In this document: in pieces, positions 4,376-48,034 of the stretch
Position numbering within the stretch: position 1 is the first letter of the stretch
Layout: each line of letters begins with the position of its first letter
Assembly: GCA_022827345.1 (NCBI GenBank)
Contig: JAJDTB010000035.1
Coordinates: 124,001 to 188,000, forward strand
Length of the DNA: 64,000 bases
Direction: 5' to 3'
Origin: Gemmatimonadota bacterium
GTDB taxonomy: Bacteria; Gemmatimonadota; Gemmatimonadetes; Longimicrobiales; Gaopeijiaceae
Program-made: the position numbers and the translations under genes
The notes under the pieces: model-generated
What the model saw: only the letters and a program-made list of their open reading frames with translations
Told to the model about the DNA's origin: nothing
Databases searched by the model: none

Positions 4376-7300
4376 ATGGAAAGAGGAACGCGTAAGAAGC
4401 CGTGCATCGGCAGGGGGATCGTCGCCTTGGCGGCGCTCTTCCTGGCCCTGCCTTCCGCTCTCGAAGCTCAGACGGGCTCGATCAGGGGGCAGGTGGTCGA
4501 CGCAATCACCCAGAGGGCGGTCGGAGGCGCCCAGGTCGAGATTGTCGACACTCGCCAGGGTGGCCTGACCAACACCTCCGGCCAGTTTCTGATCCTCAAT
4601 GTTCCCGTAGGTGAACATGAGGTGCGGGTTCAGTTCATCGGTTTCGGCACCGTAACGCAAACCGTGACGGTCACCAGCGGCGAGGCCGCGCAGCTCGACT
4701 TCGAGCTCGCCCAGGCAGCGCTCCAGCTCGACCAGATCGTGGTCACCGGAACCGCGCAGGGGACGCAGGCCCGGTCGATCGGGAACACGGTTTCGACGAT
4801 CGACGCTGCGGACATCGTGGAGATCGCGCCGATCAGCACCGTACAGGAACTGCTGACCGCCCGTACCCCCGGCTTGACGCTGATGAAGAACTCCGGCCAG
4901 GCCGGATCGAGCTCCAAGCTGCGGATCCGGGGAGCGGGTTCCCTGGCGGCAGGGCTGCAACCCGTCGTCTACGTCGATGGAATTCGCATGAAGTCCGGTA
5001 CGCAGGGCGGGCAGGACGTAGGCTGGGGCGGTGCGCAGGGAACCGACGCCCTCGACTTCCTGAACCCGCAGGACATCGAGTCGGTCGAGACCATCAAGGG
5101 TCCTGCCGCGTCCACCCTCTACGGGGCCGACGCGGCCGGCGGCGTCATCCAGATCATCACCAAGAAGGGCCGTGCCGGATCCGGACTGGTGTGGAATGCT
5201 TCCTTCGAGACCGGCTACAACGAGTGGGCGCTGGACACCCCGACGAACTACTGGAGATGTACCGCGTCCAATATCGGTAACCCCGGTGTCTACCCGGGGT
5301 GCCAGGGCGTCGCGGAGAACACGGTGTTGATGGATGATCCCGTGAAGCGTCATCCGATGGCGCTCCGTCAGAATGAAGGCGGACCGGACAGCTACGCCGA
5401 CCTCAGCACCTTCAACCTGTCCGCCCGCGGCGGAGGGGAAGCCTTCAACTACTACCTCTCGTTCGAGAAGGGCGGCGAAGAGGGCGTCTACTACAACAAC
5501 TTCTCCAACCGGACCTCCGGGCGCGCGAACTTCGGTTTCACACCGACCGAACGATTCTCTGCGTCGGTCAACGTCGGGTACGCTCGCACTCATGTGCAGA
5601 TGCCGTTCGCGAACAACTCGTCGAACTCGATTCTGCGGAACGGATTCAGGGGGCGGCCCGGGTCGTCCGCACCGTGGGAAGAGGGTTTCCGGGGCTTCGG
5701 ACCCAACCTCTCCAACGAGTACGACAATCAGACCGAGGCCGAGCGCACGACGATCGCCATGACCGTCAACTACCAGCCGTGGGACTGGTTCACGAACCGG
5801 CTGACGCTGGGAATGGACAAGCAGGATCGGAACAACTCCGAGATCAACATGATCGACACCACCGGTCTGCAGCCGTGGGGTGCCACCTCCTCCGGCGGCC
5901 GGGTGCAGCGCTTCCTGCCCGTCGATCACTCGTGGACGGCCGACTACGCCGGCACCGTCGGAACCGACATCACCGATGACGTCACCTCTTCGCTGTCCTT
6001 CGGGGCACAGTTGGTGAGGGAACAGTTCTCATCGCACTTCGTCGATGGACAGGGTTTCGTGGCCAACAACCTGAACCTCATCGGAACCGCCGCGGTTACA
6101 TCGGCGTCGGAGGGGTTCGTCGAGCAGACTTCGCTGGGGGTCTATCTGCAGGAACAGGCAGCCTGGCGAGATCGCCTGTACGGCACGGTGGCCGTGCGTG
6201 TCGACGACAACTCGGCGTTCGGAAACGACTTCTCGCTCGTCGTATACCCGAAGGCCTCGCTGTCCTACATCATCTCGGACGAAGAGTTCTTCAGCTTGCC
6301 CTATGTGGATGAGTTGAAGCTGCGCGGCGCCTGGGGCCAGGCGGGCAAGGCACCCGCTCCCTTCACGGCGGACCGCGCCTACGCGCCTGACGTGACCGTG
6401 GTCGGTGATATGGCCGTGAACCAGCTGTCGACCGCTTCGTATGGGAACCCCGACCTGAAAGCCGAGACAGGTACCGAGATTGAGCTCGGCTTCGATGCGT
6501 CGCTCATGGAGGGACGCGCTGCTCTTGAAGTCACGTACTACAACCAGCGCACCACCGATGCGTTGATCTCCGTGCCCGATCCGCCCTCGAGCGGATTCAG
6601 CGGCAGCCACTTCGTGAACATCGGCGAGATCGCGAACAGCGGATTCGAGGTGCTCCTCACGGGATCCCCGATCTACACGCGCAATCTTCAATGGGACGCG
6701 AGCGTGTCAGTATACACCAACTCGAACGAGCTCGTCTCCTTCGGCGGTGCACTGGAAGACATCAGCTTCGGAGCGTTCGCCCAGGTGCACAAGCACATCG
6801 AGGGCTACCCGCTGGGCGGGTACTGGTCGGTGGACGTTGTGCGGGACGCGAGCGGCAACCCCGTTCTCACCCCGAGCGGAGGCGTAACCGTCGACTACGA
6901 CAACGAGGAGTTCGTGGGACCGCAGCTGCCCACGCGGGAGATTGCGTTCTCCAACACCTTCACGCTGCTCGGGAACCTCCGCGTCTTCGCCCAGTTCGAC
7001 TACAAGGGCGGCCACCACCAGTGGTGCGCGATCTGCTCGATCCGCAACCGAATCGACCGCAACAGCTGGGAGGTGAACAACCCCGACGCCGATCCGACGG
7101 AAGTCCTGGTGTGGCGCAGCCGCCAGACCAAGACGCACCTGTTCCCGGCGGATTTCCTGAAGTTCCGGGAGATCGCCGTGAGCTACACGTTGCCGTCCGA
7201 TTTGAGCAACGCCTTCCGCGCGGACCGTGCCACGGTGACGCTATCGGGCCGGAACATCTGGATGTGGACCAAGTACGGAGGCACTTCCGATCCGGAAGTC

Positions 7301-36905: not shown

Positions 36906-37409
36906 CTACGGCAGTTCTGCAATCCGAAGCCTGGAAGTTCTCTTGTGGCCAGGATTGCAGAGCAGCGTGGGCCGGGCCGGGTTGAGACATGGCGCAGCTT
37001 CGACCGACAGCGTGTCCATCACGAAGTCGCCCGAAGTCGTCAGCCCCGAGACGACCAGCCGGAAGTCGTACGCCCTCGCGATGTTGCCCCACACCCGCGC
37101 CGTGTCGGGTGACTCGAAGCTGCGGCCTCCCGCCTTGCTGATCACAGGGGGCCACCAGAAGGGATTCGCGGTTTCCGCCTCCAGCTCCCAGGTCAGCACC
37201 AGGTCTTCACGGACGGGAGGAACGGCGCTAATGCGTATCCACAGCGATTGTACTTCGATGTCCAGCGTGTCCAGCGCCAATTCGAAACGTGGTTGGCGCT
37301 GCCCCTCCTCCAGTGCGGTGGGCAGGGCCGGTCCGCATCCGTGGAAAACTAGAACTGCGAGCAGAGGTCGAAAGCCCGGTCGGGCGGTGCGCGTCCAGGA
37401 GCCGTTCAT
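36906..37409 (-). CDS. Small lipoprotein, unknown
   Basis: 167-residue lipoprotein (LAVLVFHGC, Cys25) that I do not recognise. One beta-rich domain: RFELALDTLDIEVQSLWIRI, EDLVLTWELEAETANPFWWP, YDFRLVVSGLTTSGDFVMDT. A late Cys pair (APCLNP, LLCNPGH) may form a disulfide. AAGGAGGACGGG precedes ATG 37409. A TTAGG-n4-CCTAA box stands 61 bases upstream, so it may respond to metal. It converges with the YigZ gene. Confidence 0.65.
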   Translation of the reverse strand: MNGSWTRTARPGFRPLLAVLVFHGCGPALPTALEEGQRQPRFELALDTLDIEVQSLWIRISAVPPVREDLVLTWELEAETANPFWWPPVISKAGGRSFESPDTARVWGNIARAYDFRLVVSGLTTSGDFVMDTLSVEAAPCLNPARPTLLCNPGHKRTSRLRIAELP

Positions 37410-37496: not shown

Positions 37497-37508
37497 CGTT
37501 ACGTAACG
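37497..37508. promoter_or_regulatory. CGTTACGTAACG palindrome
   Basis: Uninterrupted 12-bp palindrome. With the next base it contains GTTACGTAACGG (37498-37509), which recurs at 41996-42007 ahead of the TonB receptor gene. Confidence 0.5.
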
Positions 37509-37789
37509 GTCACAGAAATGGTGTTTTCCCATATCTGAACGGTGTCGAGGTGTCCGTGACACCCCCGTTCACACCGATCCTGGAGAAGGTCGGCCTACGA
37601 CAGCCGACGGGCTATCGCGCCTGCGGAAGACCGATCCGTTCCCGAACCGTTCCCGCAATGAGCCAGAGAAAGTGCCAAATCATCGCAGGCAAGGAGCGAT
37701 GATTCGCGTGGTCACCCCCCGGGCCCTGCAGGCCGGGGGCAAGCCGGTTCATCCGGCCGGATCAACACCCATCAGGGGGTTTGCCACAA

Positions 37790-38713
37790 ATGCCAGGCTT
37801 GCACCTCCACAGGATGCTCGCCCAACGGATGCTCGATCACTGGGACGGTGAGGGCATCAACGAGCTGAATCATTACCGTCCACACTGTTCCGATAGCAGG
37901 AATGCCTTCTTCGCGGGCGCCTTTGGACCTGATCTGGGGTATTTCCCGGGTGGTCACAGACTTATCTCCGACCTGGCCCATCGGGTCAGGAGCGGACAGC
38001 TGGTCCGGCACCTGCTGACCACCGCCGCGACTCCGATTGAGCGGTGCTTTGCCGCGGGATGGCTCACCCATGTCGTTGGCGACCTTCTGATACACCCCGC
38101 GATCGCCCGTGGAGTTGGTGAGTTGGTGAACGGAGATCGGACCCGCCCCCTCGGCGGCGGATCCCATCCCGCCGAGCACGTCCGTGTCGAGACGGGTCTG
38201 GACGCATGGTGGGCGGCTGAAGAGCCTGGACCCGTATCGTGCAGGGTCACCTTTGATCCCACCACCGTCACGTTCCTGCGCAGGGCATTCAAGGACGTTT
38301 ACGGCATCGACGTGTCGGCGGAACATTTCCTTTCGTCCCAACGCGCTGCGACGAGGGGCAGCCTGGTGGGCATGCAGTTGGTCGGCTGGCTCGGGCGAAA
38401 CGGCCGCACACCCCTGCAGCGACCGCTCAGCAGTGCTGCCGCGAGAGCCCTTGAAGGCGTTCGGCAACTCCTGGAAACGGTCGGGATTCGTCCCCTGTTC
38501 CTGTCACTCCTGACTCCCGAAAACCCGGCAAGCTGGCTGCTCACGCACACCGAGCGGTGTCTTGCCCTGTCACCCCGGTTGATTGACCATCATCTCGGAA
38601 CGGGCGGACGCGAACTGGGCAACTTCAACCTGGACACCGGCGCGGCGGAGTGCGCGAGCCAAAGCCCCCCTGCGGTGCGAGGTGTGCCGAAAAGGCTGGG
38701 ATGGGGCGCCTGA
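37790..38713 (+). CDS. Zinc-dependent phospholipase C-like protein
   Basis: 307-residue protein of PF00882 (Zn_dep_PLPC). Seen: MPGLHLHRMLAQRML, the His/Asp-rich FFAGAFGPDLGYFPGGHRLI followed by SDLAHRV, and FAAGWLTHVVGDLLIHPAI, which supply the usual His and Asp ligands. ATG 37790 has AGGGGG 11 bases upstream; TTG 37781 is also in frame. No signal peptide, so cytoplasmic or peripheral. It overlaps the next gene by 13 bases. Possible product is diacylglycerol from phospholipid, in keeping with the lipid genes that follow. Confidence 0.75.
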   Translation: MPGLHLHRMLAQRMLDHWDGEGINELNHYRPHCSDSRNAFFAGAFGPDLGYFPGGHRLISDLAHRVRSGQLVRHLLTTAATPIERCFAAGWLTHVVGDLLIHPAIARGVGELVNGDRTRPLGGGSHPAEHVRVETGLDAWWAAEEPGPVSCRVTFDPTTVTFLRRAFKDVYGIDVSAEHFLSSQRAATRGSLVGMQLVGWLGRNGRTPLQRPLSSAAARALEGVRQLLETVGIRPLFLSLLTPENPASWLLTHTERCLALSPRLIDHHLGTGGRELGNFNLDTGAAECASQSPPAVRGVPKRLGWGA

Positions 38714-39405
38714 AATCCGTTTCTGTTGTGATTCCGACGCTCAATGAGGAAGACTCGATTTCGGCCACTATCGACGCACTCAAGGCCCAGTCGATACCAC
38801 CCGAACAGATCGTGATCGCCGACGCTGGATCGACGGATCGCACGACCGGGATCGGACGCGCTCTGGGGTGCCGGATCGTCGCCGGGGGACTTCCCGGAGT
38901 CGGTCGGAACAACGGCGCCCGCGCGACCGACTCGGCCTGGATCCTCTTTCTCGACGCCGATGTCCTGGTGCCGCCGGACGGGCTCGAGCAAGCGCTCTCC
39001 GCAGCTGAGGAAGGCCGCCTGGATGCACTGAGCTGCTGGTTCGTGCCGGATGTCGCCGCGTGGCGGATCCGTTTCACGCACTGGCTCTCCGCAGCCTACT
39101 TTCGGGTCAGCACGCATTTTCGGTGGGCCCATTCGATCGGCGGATTCCTGCTCGTGCGACGAGAGGTGCACGAGGCCATCGGCGGCTTCGACGAATCCGT
39201 GCTGGTGGCCGAGGATCAGGACTACGTCCGCAGGACCAGCCGGATCGGGCGCTACGGGTTCGTCCGCCGGCCCACCGTCGTAATCTCGGCCAGGCGCTTC
39301 CGCGCCGACGGATTCCTGCGAGCCTCCGCACGCTGGATCGGGATAGAACTCCACCGAATGTTCGTGGGCGAGATCAGGCGACCCCTGTTCCGCTATTTCG
39401 ACTAG
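38701..39405 (+). CDS. Family 2 glycosyltransferase
   Basis: 234-residue GT-A fold transferase. Seen: SVSVVIPTLNEEDSISATID, IVIADAGSTDRTTGIGRALG, the metal-binding ILFLDADVLVPPDG, and SIGGFLLVRREVHEAIGGFD with EDQDYVRR as the likely catalytic-acid region. ATG 38701 chosen because it begins the domain directly; it overlaps the phospholipase-like gene. Ends with FDR-type basic tail (RRPLFRYFD). Substrate not known; context suggests a lipid or lipid-linked acceptor. Confidence 0.87.
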   Translation: MGRLKSVSVVIPTLNEEDSISATIDALKAQSIPPEQIVIADAGSTDRTTGIGRALGCRIVAGGLPGVGRNNGARATDSAWILFLDADVLVPPDGLEQALSAAEEGRLDALSCWFVPDVAAWRIRFTHWLSAAYFRVSTHFRWAHSIGGFLLVRREVHEAIGGFDESVLVAEDQDYVRRTSRIGRYGFVRRPTVVISARRFRADGFLRASARWIGIELHRMFVGEIRRPLFRYFD

Positions 39406-39437
39406 GCCGCTTGCGGGCAAACACTGGCGACCCTTCG

Positions 39438-40085
39438 TCAGACGCCGGCCAGTGCCCGCCCCGCGGACTCCACGAGCCAGAGGACCAGGGCGGTCGCGAC
39501 CGGGACGGTCAGGTTGTCGTCGACTCCTGTAGGGAGGACCTCGAAGATCGCGACCGAGACCGCCGCAACGAGGGCGCCGGGCAGGCCGACGAATGGAAAT
39601 GTCACCGCGCAGGCAACGAGGAAGAACGTGATCGTCCCCTCCCAGCTTCCCTTGCCGAGGGAATGTCTGCCCCACAACCGGCCGACGACGCTCGCCGCCG
39701 GATCCGCGAGGGCGAGGACGAGCACGGCGGGCGCGAAGAGGTGGGCGGGGGCAATGAGGAGGGTCGCAAGGACGCCCATGAGAAACCATGTGGACGACGC
39801 GACCCTGCGTGCCTCCCGCGGCGACGCCAGTGCCGCGAACCAGCGGAAGAAGATGAAGTTCGCGCCGGGGACCCTCAATCGAACCCAGTCGAGGGTCAGG
39901 GATGCCAGCGTACCGCCGCCGAGGAGGAAAAGGATGACTCCAGTGCCGAGGCCGCTGTATTCCACCAGGGCCACCATCGTCAGGCCGCAGGCGGCATGGA
40001 ATACCCGGCGCCATGGCTGGAGGCCCCGGGTCTTGCGGACCACGCGCGTGAAGTCGCCGGTCGTCGTGTGGGCCGCGTTCTTCAC
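39438..40085 (-). CDS. CTP-dependent lipid kinase-like protein (SEC59/DGK1/VTE5 group)
   Basis: About 215-residue polytopic membrane protein. Seen: RRVFHAACGLTMVALVEYSG, membrane segments VILFLLGGGTLASLTLDWVR, WFLMGVLATLLIAPAHLFAP, and the group signature DPAASVVGRLWGRHSLGKGS followed by WEGTITFFLVACAVTFPFVG. Members phosphorylate dolichol, diacylglycerol or phytol with CTP. GTG 40085 gives the usual length; ATG 40214 is also in frame and neither has a clear ribosome site. Reads opposite to its neighbours within the lipid cluster. Confidence 0.75.
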   Translation of the reverse strand: MKNAAHTTTGDFTRVVRKTRGLQPWRRVFHAACGLTMVALVEYSGLGTGVILFLLGGGTLASLTLDWVRLRVPGANFIFFRWFAALASPREARRVASSTWFLMGVLATLLIAPAHLFAPAVLVLALADPAASVVGRLWGRHSLGKGSWEGTITFFLVACAVTFPFVGLPGALVAAVSVAIFEVLPTGVDDNLTVPVATALVLWLVESAGRALAGV

Positions 40086-40240
40086 CGAGGAGTGGCCGGA
40101 AAGCGTCTTGCCCTGGAAGGGTAGACCGGATCGAACCGAGGTCGTTTCACAGAGGTTACCCTGCCTTCGCTCCGATGTTGCCGCCGGTCTCCAAGCTAGT
40201 GGTGCCTGATCCATCCTGTTCAATATATGGAGAATCATCA

Positions 40241-40759
40241 GTGGCAAGTCTGGGCGTTCGCATTGCCGGGGTCGACCAGCGCATCCTGCTCGCAGTGGTG
40301 GCACGCCGTACGCCCTGGCTGGATGGGCCAATGCGAGCCGTGACCGTTCTTGCGAATGCGTCGGTCGTCATCACCCTCACGGTGGCGCTGGCACTCGGCC
40401 TGCTTCCGGGACTGGAAGCAGCCGGCCGCGAGGCTGCGGTGGTGCTCTGCGTTTCACACCTGCTGGTGCAGATCGTCAAGCGTCTGGCCACCCGTCCACG
40501 GCCGACGCTGCCCATTGGCATCGACTCGATCATCCAGGCTCCGGATCGATTCTCGTTCCCGTCGGGCCATGCCACGGCGGGACTGTCGGTCGCACTGCCG
40601 ATTGCAGCCGCACTCTCACCGGCTCTGGCGGCTGCCGTCGTCGGCCTGGGCGTGACCATCGGCATATCACGCTGTTACCTCGGAATCCATTACCCCGGGG
40701 ACGTGATCGTCGGGTGGGGGCTGGCGGCATTCGCCTGGATCCTGATCCCTCCGATCTGA
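40241..40759 (+). CDS. PAP2-family membrane phosphatase
   Basis: 172-residue phosphatidic acid phosphatase-type enzyme. All three motifs are present: KRLATRPRP (K-x6-RP), FPSGH and SRCYLGIHYPGD (SR-x5-H-x3-D), between membrane segments such as ASVVITLTVALALGLLPGL. GTG 40241 has GGAG eight bases upstream. Substrates in the family include phosphatidate and undecaprenyl pyrophosphate. The next gene starts 1 base after its stop. Confidence 0.9.
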   Translation: MASLGVRIAGVDQRILLAVVARRTPWLDGPMRAVTVLANASVVITLTVALALGLLPGLEAAGREAAVVLCVSHLLVQIVKRLATRPRPTLPIGIDSIIQAPDRFSFPSGHATAGLSVALPIAAALSPALAAAVVGLGVTIGISRCYLGIHYPGDVIVGWGLAAFAWILIPPI

Positions 40760-40760
40760 T

Positions 40761-41981
40761 TTGCGTAGTGCCATCCGCATAGCGGTCTTTTCCGAAGTCG
40801 GACACCCCCGCTCCGGCCTCGCGCATTTCAGCGGCGTCAGCAATTTCCTCTTCTACAAGATGCGGTACTGCAGGGAGCGCGGGGTGGAGATGGATCTCTA
40901 CAGCTACGCGGTACGGGATCGGGCGGACGAGGACGGCTCCCTTCGCCACTACGGCTGGCGACCACGGAGCCCTGTCTACGTCGATCCGTCGATCCCTCAG
41001 GATCTGGGCCATCTGGTCCCAAACCGGCGGATCCTGGCGCTCGCGGCCTCGCGGGAATATGACGTTATCAATGTCGTGGCCCCCGGAACGATGGGAATGC
41101 AGGGCTTGTGGGCCGCCCGCCGCCTGCAGGTGCCAGCGGTGGCGATGTACACGACCAGCCTGGCGGAATACGCCGGTCACCGCGTATCCGACGCCTTGTC
41201 GCGACTGGGCCGGGCCAGGGCGCCGGCGGTGAGGGCAGCGGAGGCCCTGGGTTGGTGGATCATGCGCCGCTTCTACTCCCGACGGAACGGCATCAGAGAG
41301 GTTCTGGCTCCCACGCGGCGGATCGCGGACGAGGTGGCGCCACGGCTTGATGCCCCCCTGGCGGTGCTGGGCCGTGGCGTGGACACGGAGCTGTTCAGAC
41401 CCGGCCCGGCCGAGTCCCGGTGCGCGGCGGGAGCCGCTCCGGTCGCCCTCTACTCCGGGAGACTACACCGGGGAGAGAAGGGCCTGGACAGGTTCATCGA
41501 GATTCTGGAAGCGATCCCGGACCTGCGGTTGCTGGTGGTGGGCGACGGTCCCCATCGCAGCGAGCTCGAGCGCGCGTTCGGTTCCCGGGCCTGCTTCACT
41601 GGGAGGCTGGCCGGCGAGGAGCTCGCTGCCGCATATCGGCGGGCCGACCTGTTCGTCTTCCCAAGCAGGCACGACACCTTCGGGCAGGTCGTAATGGAAG
41701 CGATGGCCACGGGATTGCCGGTGGTCGTCACCGACCAGGGTGGACCCCAGGAGCTGGTGGAGGACGGAGTCACGGGATTCGTTGCGGACGACGCCTCGTT
41801 TGTTTCACGCGTGCGCCAACTCACCGAATCGTGCGAGCTGAGAACCAGGATGGGGCGGAACGCCCGGTCCGCCGCCGACGCTCGAAGCTGGAACTGCATC
41901 TTCGACGAGCTCATGGACCGCTATTCCAGGGCCGCGCGCCGAGAAAGCGGGGGCGCGGTCCCTGCAGCTCCGGGTCGATGA
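40761..41981 (+). CDS. Family 4 glycosyltransferase
   Basis: 406-residue GT-B transferase similar in layout to mannosyl/sulfoquinovosyl-diacylglycerol synthases (MgtA/SqdX). Seen: IRIAVFSEVGHPRSGLAHFS, INVVAPGTMGMQGLWAARRL, YTTSLAEYAGHR, VLGRGVDTELFRPG, ALYSGRLHRGEKGLDRFIEI, and E-x7-E in EAMATGLPVVVTDQGGPQEL. TTG 40761 follows the PAP2 stop by one base. The phospholipase, phosphatase and this enzyme together could replace phospholipid with glycolipid; that is inference. Confidence 0.87.
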   Translation: MRSAIRIAVFSEVGHPRSGLAHFSGVSNFLFYKMRYCRERGVEMDLYSYAVRDRADEDGSLRHYGWRPRSPVYVDPSIPQDLGHLVPNRRILALAASREYDVINVVAPGTMGMQGLWAARRLQVPAVAMYTTSLAEYAGHRVSDALSRLGRARAPAVRAAEALGWWIMRRFYSRRNGIREVLAPTRRIADEVAPRLDAPLAVLGRGVDTELFRPGPAESRCAAGAAPVALYSGRLHRGEKGLDRFIEILEAIPDLRLLVVGDGPHRSELERAFGSRACFTGRLAGEELAAAYRRADLFVFPSRHDTFGQVVMEAMATGLPVVVTDQGGPQELVEDGVTGFVADDASFVSRVRQLTESCELRTRMGRNARSAADARSWNCIFDELMDRYSRAARRESGGAVPAAPGR

Positions 41982-41995
41982 AGATGCCGCGTGCG

Positions 41996-42048
41996 GTTAC
42001 GTAACGGGAGTTTCAGGACCGTTACACAAAGATGGATGGCACCGTTAC
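41996..42048. promoter_or_regulatory. Cluster of three GTAACGG/CCGTTAC sites
   Basis: GTTACGTAACGG (41996-42007), ACCGTTAC (42018-42025) and ACCGTTAC (42041-42048; 23 bases from the second) within 53 bases, 124 bases upstream of the TonB receptor start. The first is identical over 12 bases to the site at 37498-37509. Looks like a multi-site operator. Confidence 0.55.
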
Positions 42049-42171
42049 GCCCGGTCGGAATCTTGCCTTGTGACATCACATCGATGATTCGGCGGCTGGA
42101 CCCCGAACCCGATCTGGAACCAGGGCCTGAGGGCTCTGCACGACAACACAGGCCAAAAGACGGATTACCAG

Positions 42172-44979
42172 ATGTTCAATGGCTTTCAAGGCATGCGACT
42201 CGTCCTGCTGACGATGTCGGCAGTCGCCATCCCGGCATCGGTTTCGGCGCAGGGAGTCGGGAGAATCGTGGGCCGGGTCGTGGACCTGAGGACCGCGCAA
42301 CCCCTGCCCAGTGCCCAGGTCTACCTGGAAGATCAATCCATTGGTTCCCTTTCGTCCGTCGACGGCAGATTCGTGCTGCGGAATGTCCCGGCGGGCGAGC
42401 GCGTAGTCGTTGTTCAGATGCTCGGATACGGCAGCAAGACGCTGACGGGTGTCTCGGTGGCTCCCGACGGCGTGGCGACGGTCGAGGTGGGCCTGGAGCA
42501 GGCTGCGGTGGAACTCGAGGGAATCACGGTCGAAGCCACGGTGGAGACGGGGTCGACCGCGGCCCTTCTCAACGAGCGCCAGACCGAGTCCTTCGTCGTG
42601 GACGCCATCGGCGCCGACCAGATCTCCCGCTCGCCCGACGGCAACGCCGCCGCCGCCCTCAAGCGAGTGCCGGGACTGTCGGTGGTGGACGGGAGATTCG
42701 CGTACGTGCGGGGCCTGGGTGAGCGATACAGCTCCACGACCCTCAACGGCGCACCCCTCGCGTCGCCCATGCCCGACCGCAAGGTCGTGCCGCTCGATGT
42801 GGTTCCCTCGGACCTCCTCGAGTCGATCGTGACCGCCAAGAGCTATTCGCCCGACCAGCCCGGCGACTACGCGGGGGGGCTCGTGGAGTTGCGCACCAAG
42901 GACTTCCCGACCCGGCGCATCTTCTCGGTGTCCGCTTCCAGCAGCTACAACTCGGCGGCCACCTTCGGCGATGGACTCCGCTACGCCGGGGGCGGCCTGG
43001 ATCTGCTGGGCTTCGAGGACGGTACGCGCAACCTTCCCGACCTGCTCCCGACCGACCGCCGAGTCATCTTCCCGAACTACACGCGCAGCGACCTCGAGCA
43101 CTTCGGCGAGGCGTTCGGCGGCGATTGGGGCCCCACGGTCGGCAGTCTTCCCCCCAACTCGTCCTTCGGCGCCTCGTTCGGCGACGACCTCGAACTCTTC
43201 GGCCGCTCCTTCGGCGTCCTGGGTTCGCTGACGTACTCGAATTCGTACGGCAACAAGGGCGACGTGATCGAGCGGGTCTTCTCCACCGCGGGTCTGGCGA
43301 ACCCCGAAGTGGACTACACCGGAGACGAAACCACCCACTCCGTGTCGCTGGGCGGCCTGGCGAATCTGTCGTACGAGCTGGCGCCCACCAGCCGGATCAC
43401 CGCCAACTTCCTCTACAACCGATTGATGGACGACGAGGCGCGGGTTTACGAGGGGTACAACCTCGACTCGGGAACGGACCAGCGGAACTACCGCATCCGC
43501 TTCCTCGCCCAGACGCTCATCAATGCACAGCTCAAGGGCGAGCACCGACTCGGTTTTCTCAACAACGCCAAGTTCGACTGGCGCGGGGCGTGGTCCCAGG
43601 CGGGCCGTTACGAGCCGAACACCCGCGAGGTGCTCTACCGCGAAGTGAATGGCCGCTTCCTGTTCGACAACTTCGTTTCGTCGGGATCGGTCTTCCATCA
43701 GGACCTGGTGGACGACACCTACAGCGGCGCGGGCGACCTCAGCATCCCCTTCACCGCGGGCGACCGCACCGGCGCCTTCAAGGTGGGCGGCTCCATGAGC
43801 GCCAAGGACCGGAACGCCTTCACCCGGCGCTTCCGCTACCTGCTGATCCCGGGCGGTGTGGTGACGAACGATGTCCGGCAGCGCGACCCCAACGGCCTCT
43901 TCAACCCGGAGACGATCGCCTCCAACGGCTTCGAACTCGTCGAGGCCACCTTCAGGCCCGACAACTACGATGCCCAGGAGGACATCAGCGCGGGCTACGC
44001 CATGGTCGACACCGAGGTGTCGGAATCCGTGAAGGTGCTGGCCGGTCTGCGCGTCGAGTCCGCGACGCAGATGGTCACCCCGTTTGATCTGCATGACGTG
44101 GGACGGGAGGCGCTCGAGGGCGCCAGTCTGGACAACACCGATATCCTCCCGGCGATCAACATGACCGTGGGACTGCGGGAAGGCATGAACCTGCGCCTCG
44201 CCGCGTCCCGCACGCTGGCCCGGCCGCAGCTTCGGGAACTCGCGCCCTTCTCCTTCGCCGACTACGCCGGCGGTTACCTGACCGTCGGGAACCCCGAGCT
44301 GGTCCGGTCGCTGATCCGGAACTACGACGCCCGCTGGGAGTTCTTCTTCGCTCCGGGCGCCCTGGTCGCCGCCAGCGGCTTCTACAAGACGTTCGACGAT
44401 CCCATCGAGGTCGCCGTGCTGCCCAGCACGGAGCTTCTCAAGTCGTGGATCAACGGCGGATCCGCCAACAACTACGGGATCGAACTCGAATTCCGGTCGG
44501 ATCTCGGCTTCGTGTCCCCCGGCCTGGAATCCGTGTCCCTCAACAGCAACCTGACACTCGTTCGATCCGAAGTGACGACTCCGGACGTGATCCGCATCTA
44601 CATCCCGGGAGAGGGCGGGACGGATCTGCCGAGCGTGCCGAAGACGCGGGCTCTGCAGGGCCAGTCCCCCTACGTCTTCAACGTCTCGGCGACCTACGCA
44701 TCCGGATCCGGCGACTCCCGTGCAAGCGTCCTGTTCAATCGCTTCGGGCGCCGCATCGACGCCGTGGGAGGCCAGGCCACCGCGGACATCTTCGAGGAGG
44801 CCCGCAGCCAGCTGGACATCGTGCTGGAACAGCGGCTCTCCAACGGCGCCAAGGTCAAGCTCTCGGCGAGCCGGCTCCTGGGCAATGTGGTCGAATTCAC
44901 CCAGGAAAGAGAACTGCTGCGCCGCTGGAACAACGGCCGGACGGTCTCTCTTTCCATCGGCTGGGACACCGGAAACTAG
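42172..44979 (+). CDS. TonB-dependent outer-membrane receptor
   Basis: 935-residue receptor. Seen: signal peptide (LVLLTMSAVAIPASVSAQ), CarboxypepD_reg domain about 30-108 (GRIVGRVVDLRTAQPLPSAQ), plug about 120-240 (FVVDAIGADQISRSPDGNAA, AALKRVPGLSVVDGRFAYVR, GLGERYSSTTLNGAPLASPM, DLLESIVTAKSYSPDQPGDY, AGGLVELRTKDFP), then barrel strands to the end (TVSLSIGWDTGN). The LGERYSSTTLNG block is typical of Caulobacter/Xanthomonas-type receptors. Substrate unknown. It leads a set with two lipoproteins and a response regulator. Confidence 0.9.
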   Translation: MFNGFQGMRLVLLTMSAVAIPASVSAQGVGRIVGRVVDLRTAQPLPSAQVYLEDQSIGSLSSVDGRFVLRNVPAGERVVVVQMLGYGSKTLTGVSVAPDGVATVEVGLEQAAVELEGITVEATVETGSTAALLNERQTESFVVDAIGADQISRSPDGNAAAALKRVPGLSVVDGRFAYVRGLGERYSSTTLNGAPLASPMPDRKVVPLDVVPSDLLESIVTAKSYSPDQPGDYAGGLVELRTKDFPTRRIFSVSASSSYNSAATFGDGLRYAGGGLDLLGFEDGTRNLPDLLPTDRRVIFPNYTRSDLEHFGEAFGGDWGPTVGSLPPNSSFGASFGDDLELFGRSFGVLGSLTYSNSYGNKGDVIERVFSTAGLANPEVDYTGDETTHSVSLGGLANLSYELAPTSRITANFLYNRLMDDEARVYEGYNLDSGTDQRNYRIRFLAQTLINAQLKGEHRLGFLNNAKFDWRGAWSQAGRYEPNTREVLYREVNGRFLFDNFVSSGSVFHQDLVDDTYSGAGDLSIPFTAGDRTGAFKVGGSMSAKDRNAFTRRFRYLLIPGGVVTNDVRQRDPNGLFNPETIASNGFELVEATFRPDNYDAQEDISAGYAMVDTEVSESVKVLAGLRVESATQMVTPFDLHDVGREALEGASLDNTDILPAINMTVGLREGMNLRLAASRTLARPQLRELAPFSFADYAGGYLTVGNPELVRSLIRNYDARWEFFFAPGALVAASGFYKTFDDPIEVAVLPSTELLKSWINGGSANNYGIELEFRSDLGFVSPGLESVSLNSNLTLVRSEVTTPDVIRIYIPGEGGTDLPSVPKTRALQGQSPYVFNVSATYASGSGDSRASVLFNRFGRRIDAVGGQATADIFEEARSQLDIVLEQRLSNGAKVKLSASRLLGNVVEFTQERELLRRWNNGRTVSLSIGWDTGN

Positions 44980-45105
44980 GAACCGTGCCAGGCAATGCAG
45001 GAACACCAACGCCCGACCCAATCACGAGCCGGCACCGGTCCGGCCAGGAACGGGCAGCAACCCGGGCGAATGAAACGCCCGAAACCAATCAGAGGAGAAG
45101 CAAAC

Positions 45106-46634
<1,529 letters not shown>

Positions 46635-46659
<25 letters not shown>

Positions 46660-47261
46660 CAGGCAGCGACCATGCAGGACGGGGCTCCCGCGCCGCCGCG
46701 CGCGGGAGGAGCCGGTCCTGGCTGGTCGCTGCCCTGCTGGCCGCCGCGCTCGGGTGCGGCGGCCAGCAGCCTTTCCCTGGTTCGGCACGCAGCCTCGACG
46801 AGTTGGGGCGCGAGGTGCTGGACGCTCTCGCCCGGGACGACCGCGACGCACTGGCGAGTTTCCGCCTCACCGAGACCGAGCACAACACCGTAGTGTGGCC
46901 CGAACTGCCGGCCGCGCAGGGGCCCTCGCCCTTCCCCATCGATCTCGCCTGGCAGAACATACAGTTGAGGAACAGTCGGGCGATTCCCCGCGCGGCGAGA
47001 ATCGTGCGCAGCGCGCAGCCCCTGGAGTTCGAATCCGTGCTGTGCGTCGGTGAGCTCGAGACCTTCGAGACGTTTTCGGTGCACACCGACTGCTACACGC
47101 ACTTCCGTTCCCGCGGCGGCCGATACCGCCTGCAGCTGTTCAAGGATGTGCTGGAACGGGGCGGCGGCTTTAAGATATTCCGTTACTACGATGAGGATCC
47201 CGAGTTCGCGGGCACGGCAGTCCGCGGCGACCCCGAGGGTCCTGCCGGAGGCAAGTCATGA
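46635..47261 (+). CDS. Lipoprotein of unknown function
   Basis: 208-residue lipoprotein (LLAAALGC, Cys41). The rest is alpha/beta: ARSLDELGREVLDALARDDR, ALASFRLTETEHNTVVWPEL, RGGRYRLQLFKDVLERGGGF, resembling small DUF-type periplasmic proteins with a helical N-terminus and a beta-sheet. ATG 46635 overlaps the previous gene by 25 bases; GTG 46623 is possible and no ribosome site decides. Its stop overlaps the response-regulator ATG, so the two are coupled. Confidence 0.65.
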
Positions 47262-48034
47262 GTCCCTCCCGCTCCGAAGCCGTCGAACTGGCCGGCCTCC
47301 AGCGGCCCGACGCGAAGCGCGAGCACCCCGCTCGCATCCTTGTCGTTGAGGACGAAGCCGAGATCGCGGCGCTGATCGCCTATCAGCTCACCCGTGAAGG
47401 CTACCGCGTCGAAACCGCGCTGACCGGCACCGTCGCGCTCGACGCCATCCACAGGGACGTACCCGACCTGATCGTCCTGGACCGGATGCTGCCGGGTCTT
47501 TCGGGTGATGAGGTGCTGAGATCGCTGAAGTCGGACCCGGCCACGCAGGGCGTTCCGATCCTGTTCGTGACCGCGAAGCGCGAACAGCGGGACCGGATCG
47601 ACGGCCTCGAGCTGGGAGCCGACGACTATCTCACCAAGCCCTTCAGTCCTCGCGAGCTCGTGCTGCGCGTCGATGCCATTCTGCGCCGGGCCCACGGTGA
47701 GCTGAAACCGGTCACAGGGGGCGGAAGGATCCTGAGCGCGGGTCCGCTGCGGGTGGACACGGGCGCGCACATCGTCACGCTGGATGGCGGGGAGGTGCCG
47801 CTCACGCCGACGGAGTTCCGCCTGCTGCGTACGTTGATGGAGCGGCGCGGCCGCACGCAGAGCCGGCGGCAGCTCCTGTCCGAGGCCTGGAACGTGGACT
47901 CGGGCACGGCTGGCCGGCTCCACACCCGCACCGTGGACATGCATGTGCGCCGGCTCAGGGGCAAGCTGGGCAGCGCGGGCGACTGGATCGAGACCGTACG
48001 GGGATTCGGCTACCGGTTTCAGCAGTCCCGCTGA
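47258..48034 (+). CDS. OmpR/PhoB-family response regulator
   Basis: 258-residue DNA-binding response regulator. Seen: receiver with ILVVEDEAEIAALIAYQL (Glu31, Asp32), phospho-acceptor Asp75 in LIVLDRMLPG, Thr105 and Lys127 (LTKPFSP); winged-helix effector about 155-255 with VPLTPTEFRLLRTLMERRGR, RTVDMHVRRLRGKLG and IETVRGFGYRF. CCGGAGGCA ribosome site. No histidine kinase is next to it; it follows directly on the lipoprotein gene in the receptor operon, so it may control that operon, or respond to the state of the envelope. Confidence 0.93.
   Translation: MSPSRSEAVELAGLQRPDAKREHPARILVVEDEAEIAALIAYQLTREGYRVETALTGTVALDAIHRDVPDLIVLDRMLPGLSGDEVLRSLKSDPATQGVPILFVTAKREQRDRIDGLELGADDYLTKPFSPRELVLRVDAILRRAHGELKPVTGGGRILSAGPLRVDTGAHIVTLDGGEVPLTPTEFRLLRTLMERRGRTQSRRQLLSEAWNVDSGTAGRLHTRTVDMHVRRLRGKLGSAGDWIETVRGFGYRFQQSR

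Follow-up and report, generated by a model that had tools for sequence, protein, structure and literature searches.

Can a locus beside phoB in a marine member of the Gemmatimonadota exchange the phosphate of membrane lipids for sugars, and does it do so with a phospholipase other than the one known from marine bacteria? Replacement of phospholipids by glycolipids is a main phosphorus-saving route in marine bacteria. Such remodeling has been surveyed in metagenomes via plcP (PMC4796936). If Gemmatimonadota of this kind use other phospholipases, or a route that runs through a PAP2 phosphatase and a GT4 glycosyltransferase, surveys based on plcP miss them. The genes described here apparently have the capacity for the exchange, with a phospholipase unlike the known marine one.

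Layout of the locus

The source genome comprises 4.79 Mb and is 97% complete; the 64-kb stretch analyzed (the window) lies on a 246-kb contig. The five open reading frames that the sequence-only reading had placed at 37790-41981 were confirmed: a Zn-phospholipase C-like protein (PLPC), a GT2 glycosyltransferase, a protein resembling CTP-dependent lipid enzymes (KIN; minus strand), a PAP2 phosphatase, and a GT4 glycosyltransferase. Pfam supports the assignments of PLPC, GT2, PAP2, and GT4. The features of the locus are as follows.

36906..37409, minus strand: conserved hypothetical protein, probable lipoprotein, flank of the Pho island
37498..37513, plus strand: GTTACGTAACGGTCAC, 11-bp direct repeat with 1 mismatch, located between PLPC and the hypothetical gene, without a third repeat; weak Pho-box candidate
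37790..38713, plus strand: PLPC, Zn-dependent phospholipase C-like protein (PF00882, ligand residues)
38704..39405, plus strand: GT2 family glycosyltransferase (PF00535)
39438..40043, minus strand: KIN, putative membrane protein resembling CdsA and CTP-dependent lipid kinases (structural comparison)
40144..40183, plus strand: Pho-box-like array GTTTC-N6-GTTAC-N17-GTTGC, 5' of PAP2 and divergent to KIN
40202..40759, plus strand: PAP2 membrane phosphatase, PgpB/LpxE-like (PF01569; catalytic motifs invariant)
40761..41981, plus strand: GT4 glycosyltransferase with an FPSxHDTFG motif (PF13692/PF00534)
42010..42049, plus strand: Pho-box-like array GTTTC-N6-GTTAC-N18-GTTACG, 5' of the TonB gene
42172..44979, plus strand: TonB-dependent receptor (PF07715, PF13715, PF14905)
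44995..46659, plus strand: fn3 protein, probable beta-helix (weak Beta_helix match, in a homologue only)
46623..47261, plus strand: small probable lipoprotein, no family assigned
47258..48034, plus strand: PhoB-type response regulator (top PhoB match of the genome)

The five genes do not form one operon. PLPC and GT2 form a plus-strand pair with a 10-bp overlap, a second plus-strand pair consists of PAP2 and GT4 with a 1-bp gap, and KIN lies between the two pairs on the opposite strand. The upstream flank contains a small hypothetical gene, followed by UPF0029 and FeoB.

A PhoB-type regulator points to a Pho island

The regulator at the end of the locus scores 227 bits against the PhoB equivalog profile, the best match in the genome; the curated cut-off, 296 bits, is passed by only 2 of 14 control genomes. 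A second regulator, 59% identical to the window copy, sits in the genome's own pst-phoU locus. Comparison with pst-locus regulators covered the fetched loci, those of the relatives designated G026, G041, and G051: the window regulator is 71%, 71%, and 66 to 68% identical to them, respectively, whereas the genome's own pst-locus regulator reaches only 58%, 56%, and 52%. Judging from its sequence, we take the window regulator to be a PhoB. Wherever the genus retains the PAP2-GT4 pair (7 genomes), this regulator gene follows it, either directly or one TonB cassette away. The cassette intervenes in G000 and G008, and the GT4 frame overlaps phoB in four genomes (G005, G007, G011, and G020). We read the locus as a Pho island, in which the TonB receptor, the fn3/beta-helix-type protein, the lipoprotein-like protein, and the PhoB-type regulator are encoded downstream of the lipid genes. 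This Pho context is firmer than the reaction chain proposed below.

Promoter repeats as a candidate Pho box

Reading the sequence first revealed GTTAC repeats 5' of PLPC and 5' of the TonB gene, and the PAP2 promoter was added by a search allowing at most 1 mismatch. At that threshold, the 64-kb window contains 3 copies of GTTACN6GTTAC versus 0.36 expected, each in an intergenic region of this locus, a count that is partly post hoc because the motif was first seen here. The motif was therefore tested on other sequences. Across cluster and pst loci totaling 629 kb, the short repeat gave 17 matches, some of them orthologous, versus 3 for the reversed pattern, and a perfect copy lies 5' of the Porin_O_P-pst-phoU cluster of G051. 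Across its own genome, the short repeat is not enriched at ≤1 mismatch (35 matches versus 46 for the control); no phosphate gene was found at the eight further sites whose surroundings were read, and the genome's own pst promoter region lacks the repeat.

A composite array, GTTACN6GTTACN18GTTACG, was likewise derived from the TonB promoters and has the higher specificity. It gave 29 matches in 58 genomes of the family versus 13 for the reversed control (binomial p 0.01), and perfect arrays occur 3 times versus about 0.02 expected from base composition. The genes behind intergenic matches, named from their translations, include pstS with a porin-like gene (G104), phoB (G037), and TonB receptors with carboxypeptidase-regulatory-like starts (G021, G030, G045, G047, G053, and G112); the remaining matches lie within genes or 5' of unrelated genes. 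In G047, the homologue of the hypothetical gene at 36906..37409 is divergent to a TonB gene across a perfect array. Within the 4.79-Mb source genome, the TonB array of the window is the sole match at ≤2 mismatches. When the third repeat was permitted at position 33 or 34, two arrays were found in the window (PAP2 and TonB) and 10 in the loci, versus 0 for the control in both. The spacing of the PAP2 array is kept in five genomes, including G008, G011, G020, and, in degenerate form, G007, and is also retained at a PAP2 remnant in G021. No good array was found in the KIN/PLPC intergenic regions of other genera. The GTTAC-type array probably serves the family as its Pho box, for which this locus supplies a candidate sequence.

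A putatively cytoplasmic phospholipase C-like protein

PLPC matches PF00882 (Zn_dep_PLPC) with 41.8 bits against a cut-off of 26.8; this is the sole Pfam family matched, and it is also matched by all 16 PLPC homologues. A profile search of the PDB with PLPC gave no usable match, and Foldseek alone gave no significant one for the AlphaFold model (pLDDT 84). A second look at the model with VIA-align placed four Zn-PLCs on top (Z 7.6 to 8.4), with all others at ≤2.7. One of the enzymes compared, the Zn-dependent phospholipase C of Bacillus cereus (2huc), shares the fold (Z 7.8, 152 residues aligned) and 12% identity. Its metal ligands are Trp1, His14, Asp55, His69, His118, Asp122, His128, His142, and Glu146, and the residues invariant in the PLPC alignment (Pro2, His7, Asp48, His64, His94, Asp98, His102, His130, and Glu134) follow in the same order. 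Unlike the B. cereus enzyme, PLPC has a C-terminal extension and no signal peptide or hydrophobic signal sequence, and an invariant Met-Pro start (16/16 homologues) takes the place of the N-terminal Trp of the mature secreted enzyme. The VIA-align superposition pairs residue 2 of the model with the first residue of the mature secreted Zn-PLCs, and we infer that Pro2 may become the N-terminal ligand. No published function for cytoplasmic Zn-PLC-like proteins was found in the literature searched; the locus suggests a possible role for them.

Phosphatase, glycosyltransferases, and KIN

PAP2 matches PF01569 with 68.2 bits and contains the motifs KxxxxxxRP, PSGH, and SRxxxxxHxxxD. Among 13 sequences, K93, R100-P101, P120-H123, R157, H163, and D167 are invariant and S156 is nearly so. 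The nearest solved structures are PgpB and LpxE, and the best NCBIfam matches, below cut-off, are the undecaprenyl-diphosphatases SepP/PRK11837. GT4 matches PF13692/PF00534 with about 110 bits. Its FPSxHDTFG motif has Asp at the first EX7E position, as in the diacylglycerol glucosyltransferase GTcp, in which the Asp of the FPSXTDTFG motif is essential. The YHT motif of GT4 reads YTT, a replacement of His by Thr found in 6/6 close orthologues; catalysis or the donor may therefore differ. GT2 matches PF00535 with 81.5 bits.

KIN had been described as CTP kinase-like, a label that finds some backing in structure and none in profiles. No credible Pfam or NCBIfam match was obtained across 22 homologues, including against profiles of CTP-dependent lipid kinases of the Sec59/Dgk1/phytol kinase type. 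The model is confident (pLDDT 93.5), and Foldseek alone found nothing significant with it. In the second look with VIA-align, the CDP-DAG synthase (CdsA) of Thermotoga maritima came first with Z 7.9 over 171 residues, a value in the range reachable by unrelated helical proteins; the next unrelated row reached 5.3. The identification of KIN as a CTP-using, kinase-like lipid enzyme is plausible but unproven. A tblastn search of plasmids with a KIN homologue gave no match.

Conservation across the genus and family

The sequence-only reading had joined the five genes into a single path, which their conservation does not bear out. Among 23 genomes of the genus, PAP2-GT4 is present in 7 and KIN in 16: one genome, the present one, has both, 15 have KIN only, 6 have PAP2-GT4 only, and 1 has neither. 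The six GT4-bearing relatives are Gemmatimonadetes metagenome-assembled genomes. This near mutual exclusion (Fisher p 0.0005, kinship ignored) does not fit one obligatory five-gene cycle. Full-length PLPC occurs in the genus only here and in G020; its middle is missing in G007 and G011, and most genomes retaining PAP2-GT4 have either lost it or carry it in decayed form. Thus, PAP2-GT4 is the stable core, and PLPC, often decayed, and KIN, nearly absent beside that pair, look accessory. The relatives share a common backbone, FeoB-UPF0029-[variable]-regulator-DUF4953, whose variable part carries the five genes completely, in part, or not at all. Gene loss is indicated by a scar of GT2 in G013 and by the PAP2 remnant in G021.

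Outside the genus, KIN, PLPC, PAP2, and a glycosyltransferase recur close together in G026, G041, and G051, in differing gene orders. PAP2 and KIN occur without PLPC in G033 and G050, and in G043, KIN is divergent to PLPC and followed by a Porin_O_P gene. Parts of the set thus occur together in several further genera of this family, so the grouping is not due to chance.

Proposed function and alternative explanations

The gene set, the phoB neighborhood, the shared promoter repeats, and the conserved folds and residues are compatible with the following scheme, in which each reaction and its direction, the sugars involved, and the regulation by PhoB are predictions. At low phosphate, PhoB, whose gene closes the locus, would bind the 11-bp repeat arrays and thereby induce PAP2-GT4 together with the TonB uptake cassette. 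PAP2 would dephosphorylate phosphatidate-type lipids to diacylglycerol, which in this strain the cytoplasmic PLPC may also free directly from phospholipids. Sugar would then be added by GT4, and perhaps subsequently by GT2, to yield a phosphate-free glycolipid, and the divergent KIN could use CTP to turn surplus diacylglycerol back to phosphatidate. A Pho-controlled lipid-remodeling locus is the probable reading, and there is a reasonable case, resting on sequence, that its membrane-lipid remodeling cassette is a variant of the PlcP-Agt type. The connection that the sequence-only reading drew with phosphate starvation and membrane lipids is supported by the adjacency of phoB, the Pho-box-like arrays at PAP2 and TonB, and a Pi-induced parallel in Flavobacterium.

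A bolder version, in which the locus would be a second, independently assembled phosphate-starvation system, is tentative. A cytoplasmic Zn-PLC that, once Met is removed, has an N-terminal Pro in place of the metal-binding N-terminal Trp of the secreted enzymes would replace PlcP, and a CTP-driven diacylglycerol kinase would run the exchange backwards, giving a two-way switch under PhoB.

It is unlikely that the genes instead serve polyprenyl-phosphate metabolism and glycan assembly, with PAP2 recycling undecaprenyl diphosphate, KIN phosphorylating undecaprenol, and GT4 and GT2 building a lipid-linked glycan. The undecaprenyl-diphosphatases among the PAP2 matches agree with such a role, CTP-type kinases are able to act on polyprenols, and GT2 and GT4 enzymes are common in glycan assembly. 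However, this does not account for the Zn-phospholipase C or for the recurrent association of KIN, PLPC, and PAP2, the setting is a Pho island, and no initiating sugar-phosphate transferase, flippase, or polymerase was found among the genes of the locus.

Somewhat less likely still, the lipid genes might merely be located in the Pho island and serve constitutive phospholipid turnover outside PhoB control. Their position away from phoB and lack of good arrays in the G026, G041, and G051 loci would fit, as would the gene loss and scars at this spot in the genus. Against it stand the GT4/phoB overlap in four genomes, the conserved spacing of the PAP2 array, and the survival of that promoter beside the broken PAP2 in G021. 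Export of PLPC to scavenge phosphate from external phospholipids, suggested by its structural likeness to secreted Zn-PLCs and the nearby TonB uptake cassette, is highly improbable given its missing hydrophobic signal sequence and invariant Met-Pro start.

Comparison with known systems

PlcP-Agt lipid remodeling is known from SAR11, Phaeobacter, and P. aeruginosa (PMC4796936, PMC8528852). The locus shares with it a phospholipase C combined with a GT4 enzyme, Pho boxes (here candidates), a predicted diacylglycerol intermediate, and a glycolipid product, here predicted from the genes. In contrast, its phospholipase belongs to the Zn_dep_PLPC family (PF00882) rather than to the PlcP metallophosphoesterase family, it adds GT2, KIN, and PAP2, the last of which is the partner conserved with GT4, phoB itself lies within it, and the candidate Pho-box sequence is different. 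The locus would work like PlcP-Agt but is no member of that system, since the phospholipase family differs. The claim that the families here are unrelated to those of PlcP-Agt holds for the phospholipase but not for the glycosyltransferase, as Agt itself is a GT4 enzyme (PMC8231724) and thus of the same broad family. As to the Agt/GTcp clade, GT4 of the locus has the Asp of FPSxxDTFG but Thr for the His of YHT.

The closest published layout found is the PhoBR operon of Flavobacterium johnsoniae, Fjoh_0541-0549, which encodes a glycosyltransferase, OprP, PhoR, PhoB, a TonB receptor (PF07715, PF13715, and PF14905), and lipoproteins; most of the listed genes are induced by Pi depletion, with OprP and PhoR not significant (PMC8115612). 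It differs from the present locus in gene order, in including OprP and PhoR, in its glycosyltransferase (PF04101, not GT4), and in the absence of PAP2, PLPC, and KIN from the published table; its PlcP, listed under PF12850 (PMC8115612), is encoded elsewhere. Conversely, the two loci have in common a glycosyltransferase, PhoB, lipoproteins, and a TonB receptor whose three Pfam domains are identical in both, and one of the F. johnsoniae lipoproteins is annotated as having a pectin-lyase fold (IPR011050).

Within the genus, the gene for a putative CTP-lipid-enzyme-like membrane protein (window 39438-40043, minus strand) and the phosphatase-glycosyltransferase pair PAP2-GT4 (window 40202-41981) are nearly mutually exclusive; only 1 of the 23 genus genomes, the window's own, carries both. 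The GT4 orthologues of the genus (window 40761-41981) have YTT in place of the YHT of most other GT4 relatives, the histidine of which is usually the catalytic residue.

In two relatives, G011 (L018/L021) and G007 (L019/L022), the phospholipase C-like gene is missing approximately its middle two thirds, together with most of the ligands, and GT2-PAP2-GT4 are retained in position around it.

Two families of small probable lipoproteins (window 36906-37409 and 46623-47261), neither with a credible Pfam match, accompany the Pho island in several genomes. The genome's own pst locus (L079) encodes, at 5444-6196, another regulator of the PhoB type, which shares 59% identity with the one in the window. 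The repeat GTTAC-N6-GTTAC, a candidate Pho box, is absent from this pst locus; a perfect repeat is present at the pst loci of G002, G013, and G015, upstream of a nucleotidyltransferase gene.
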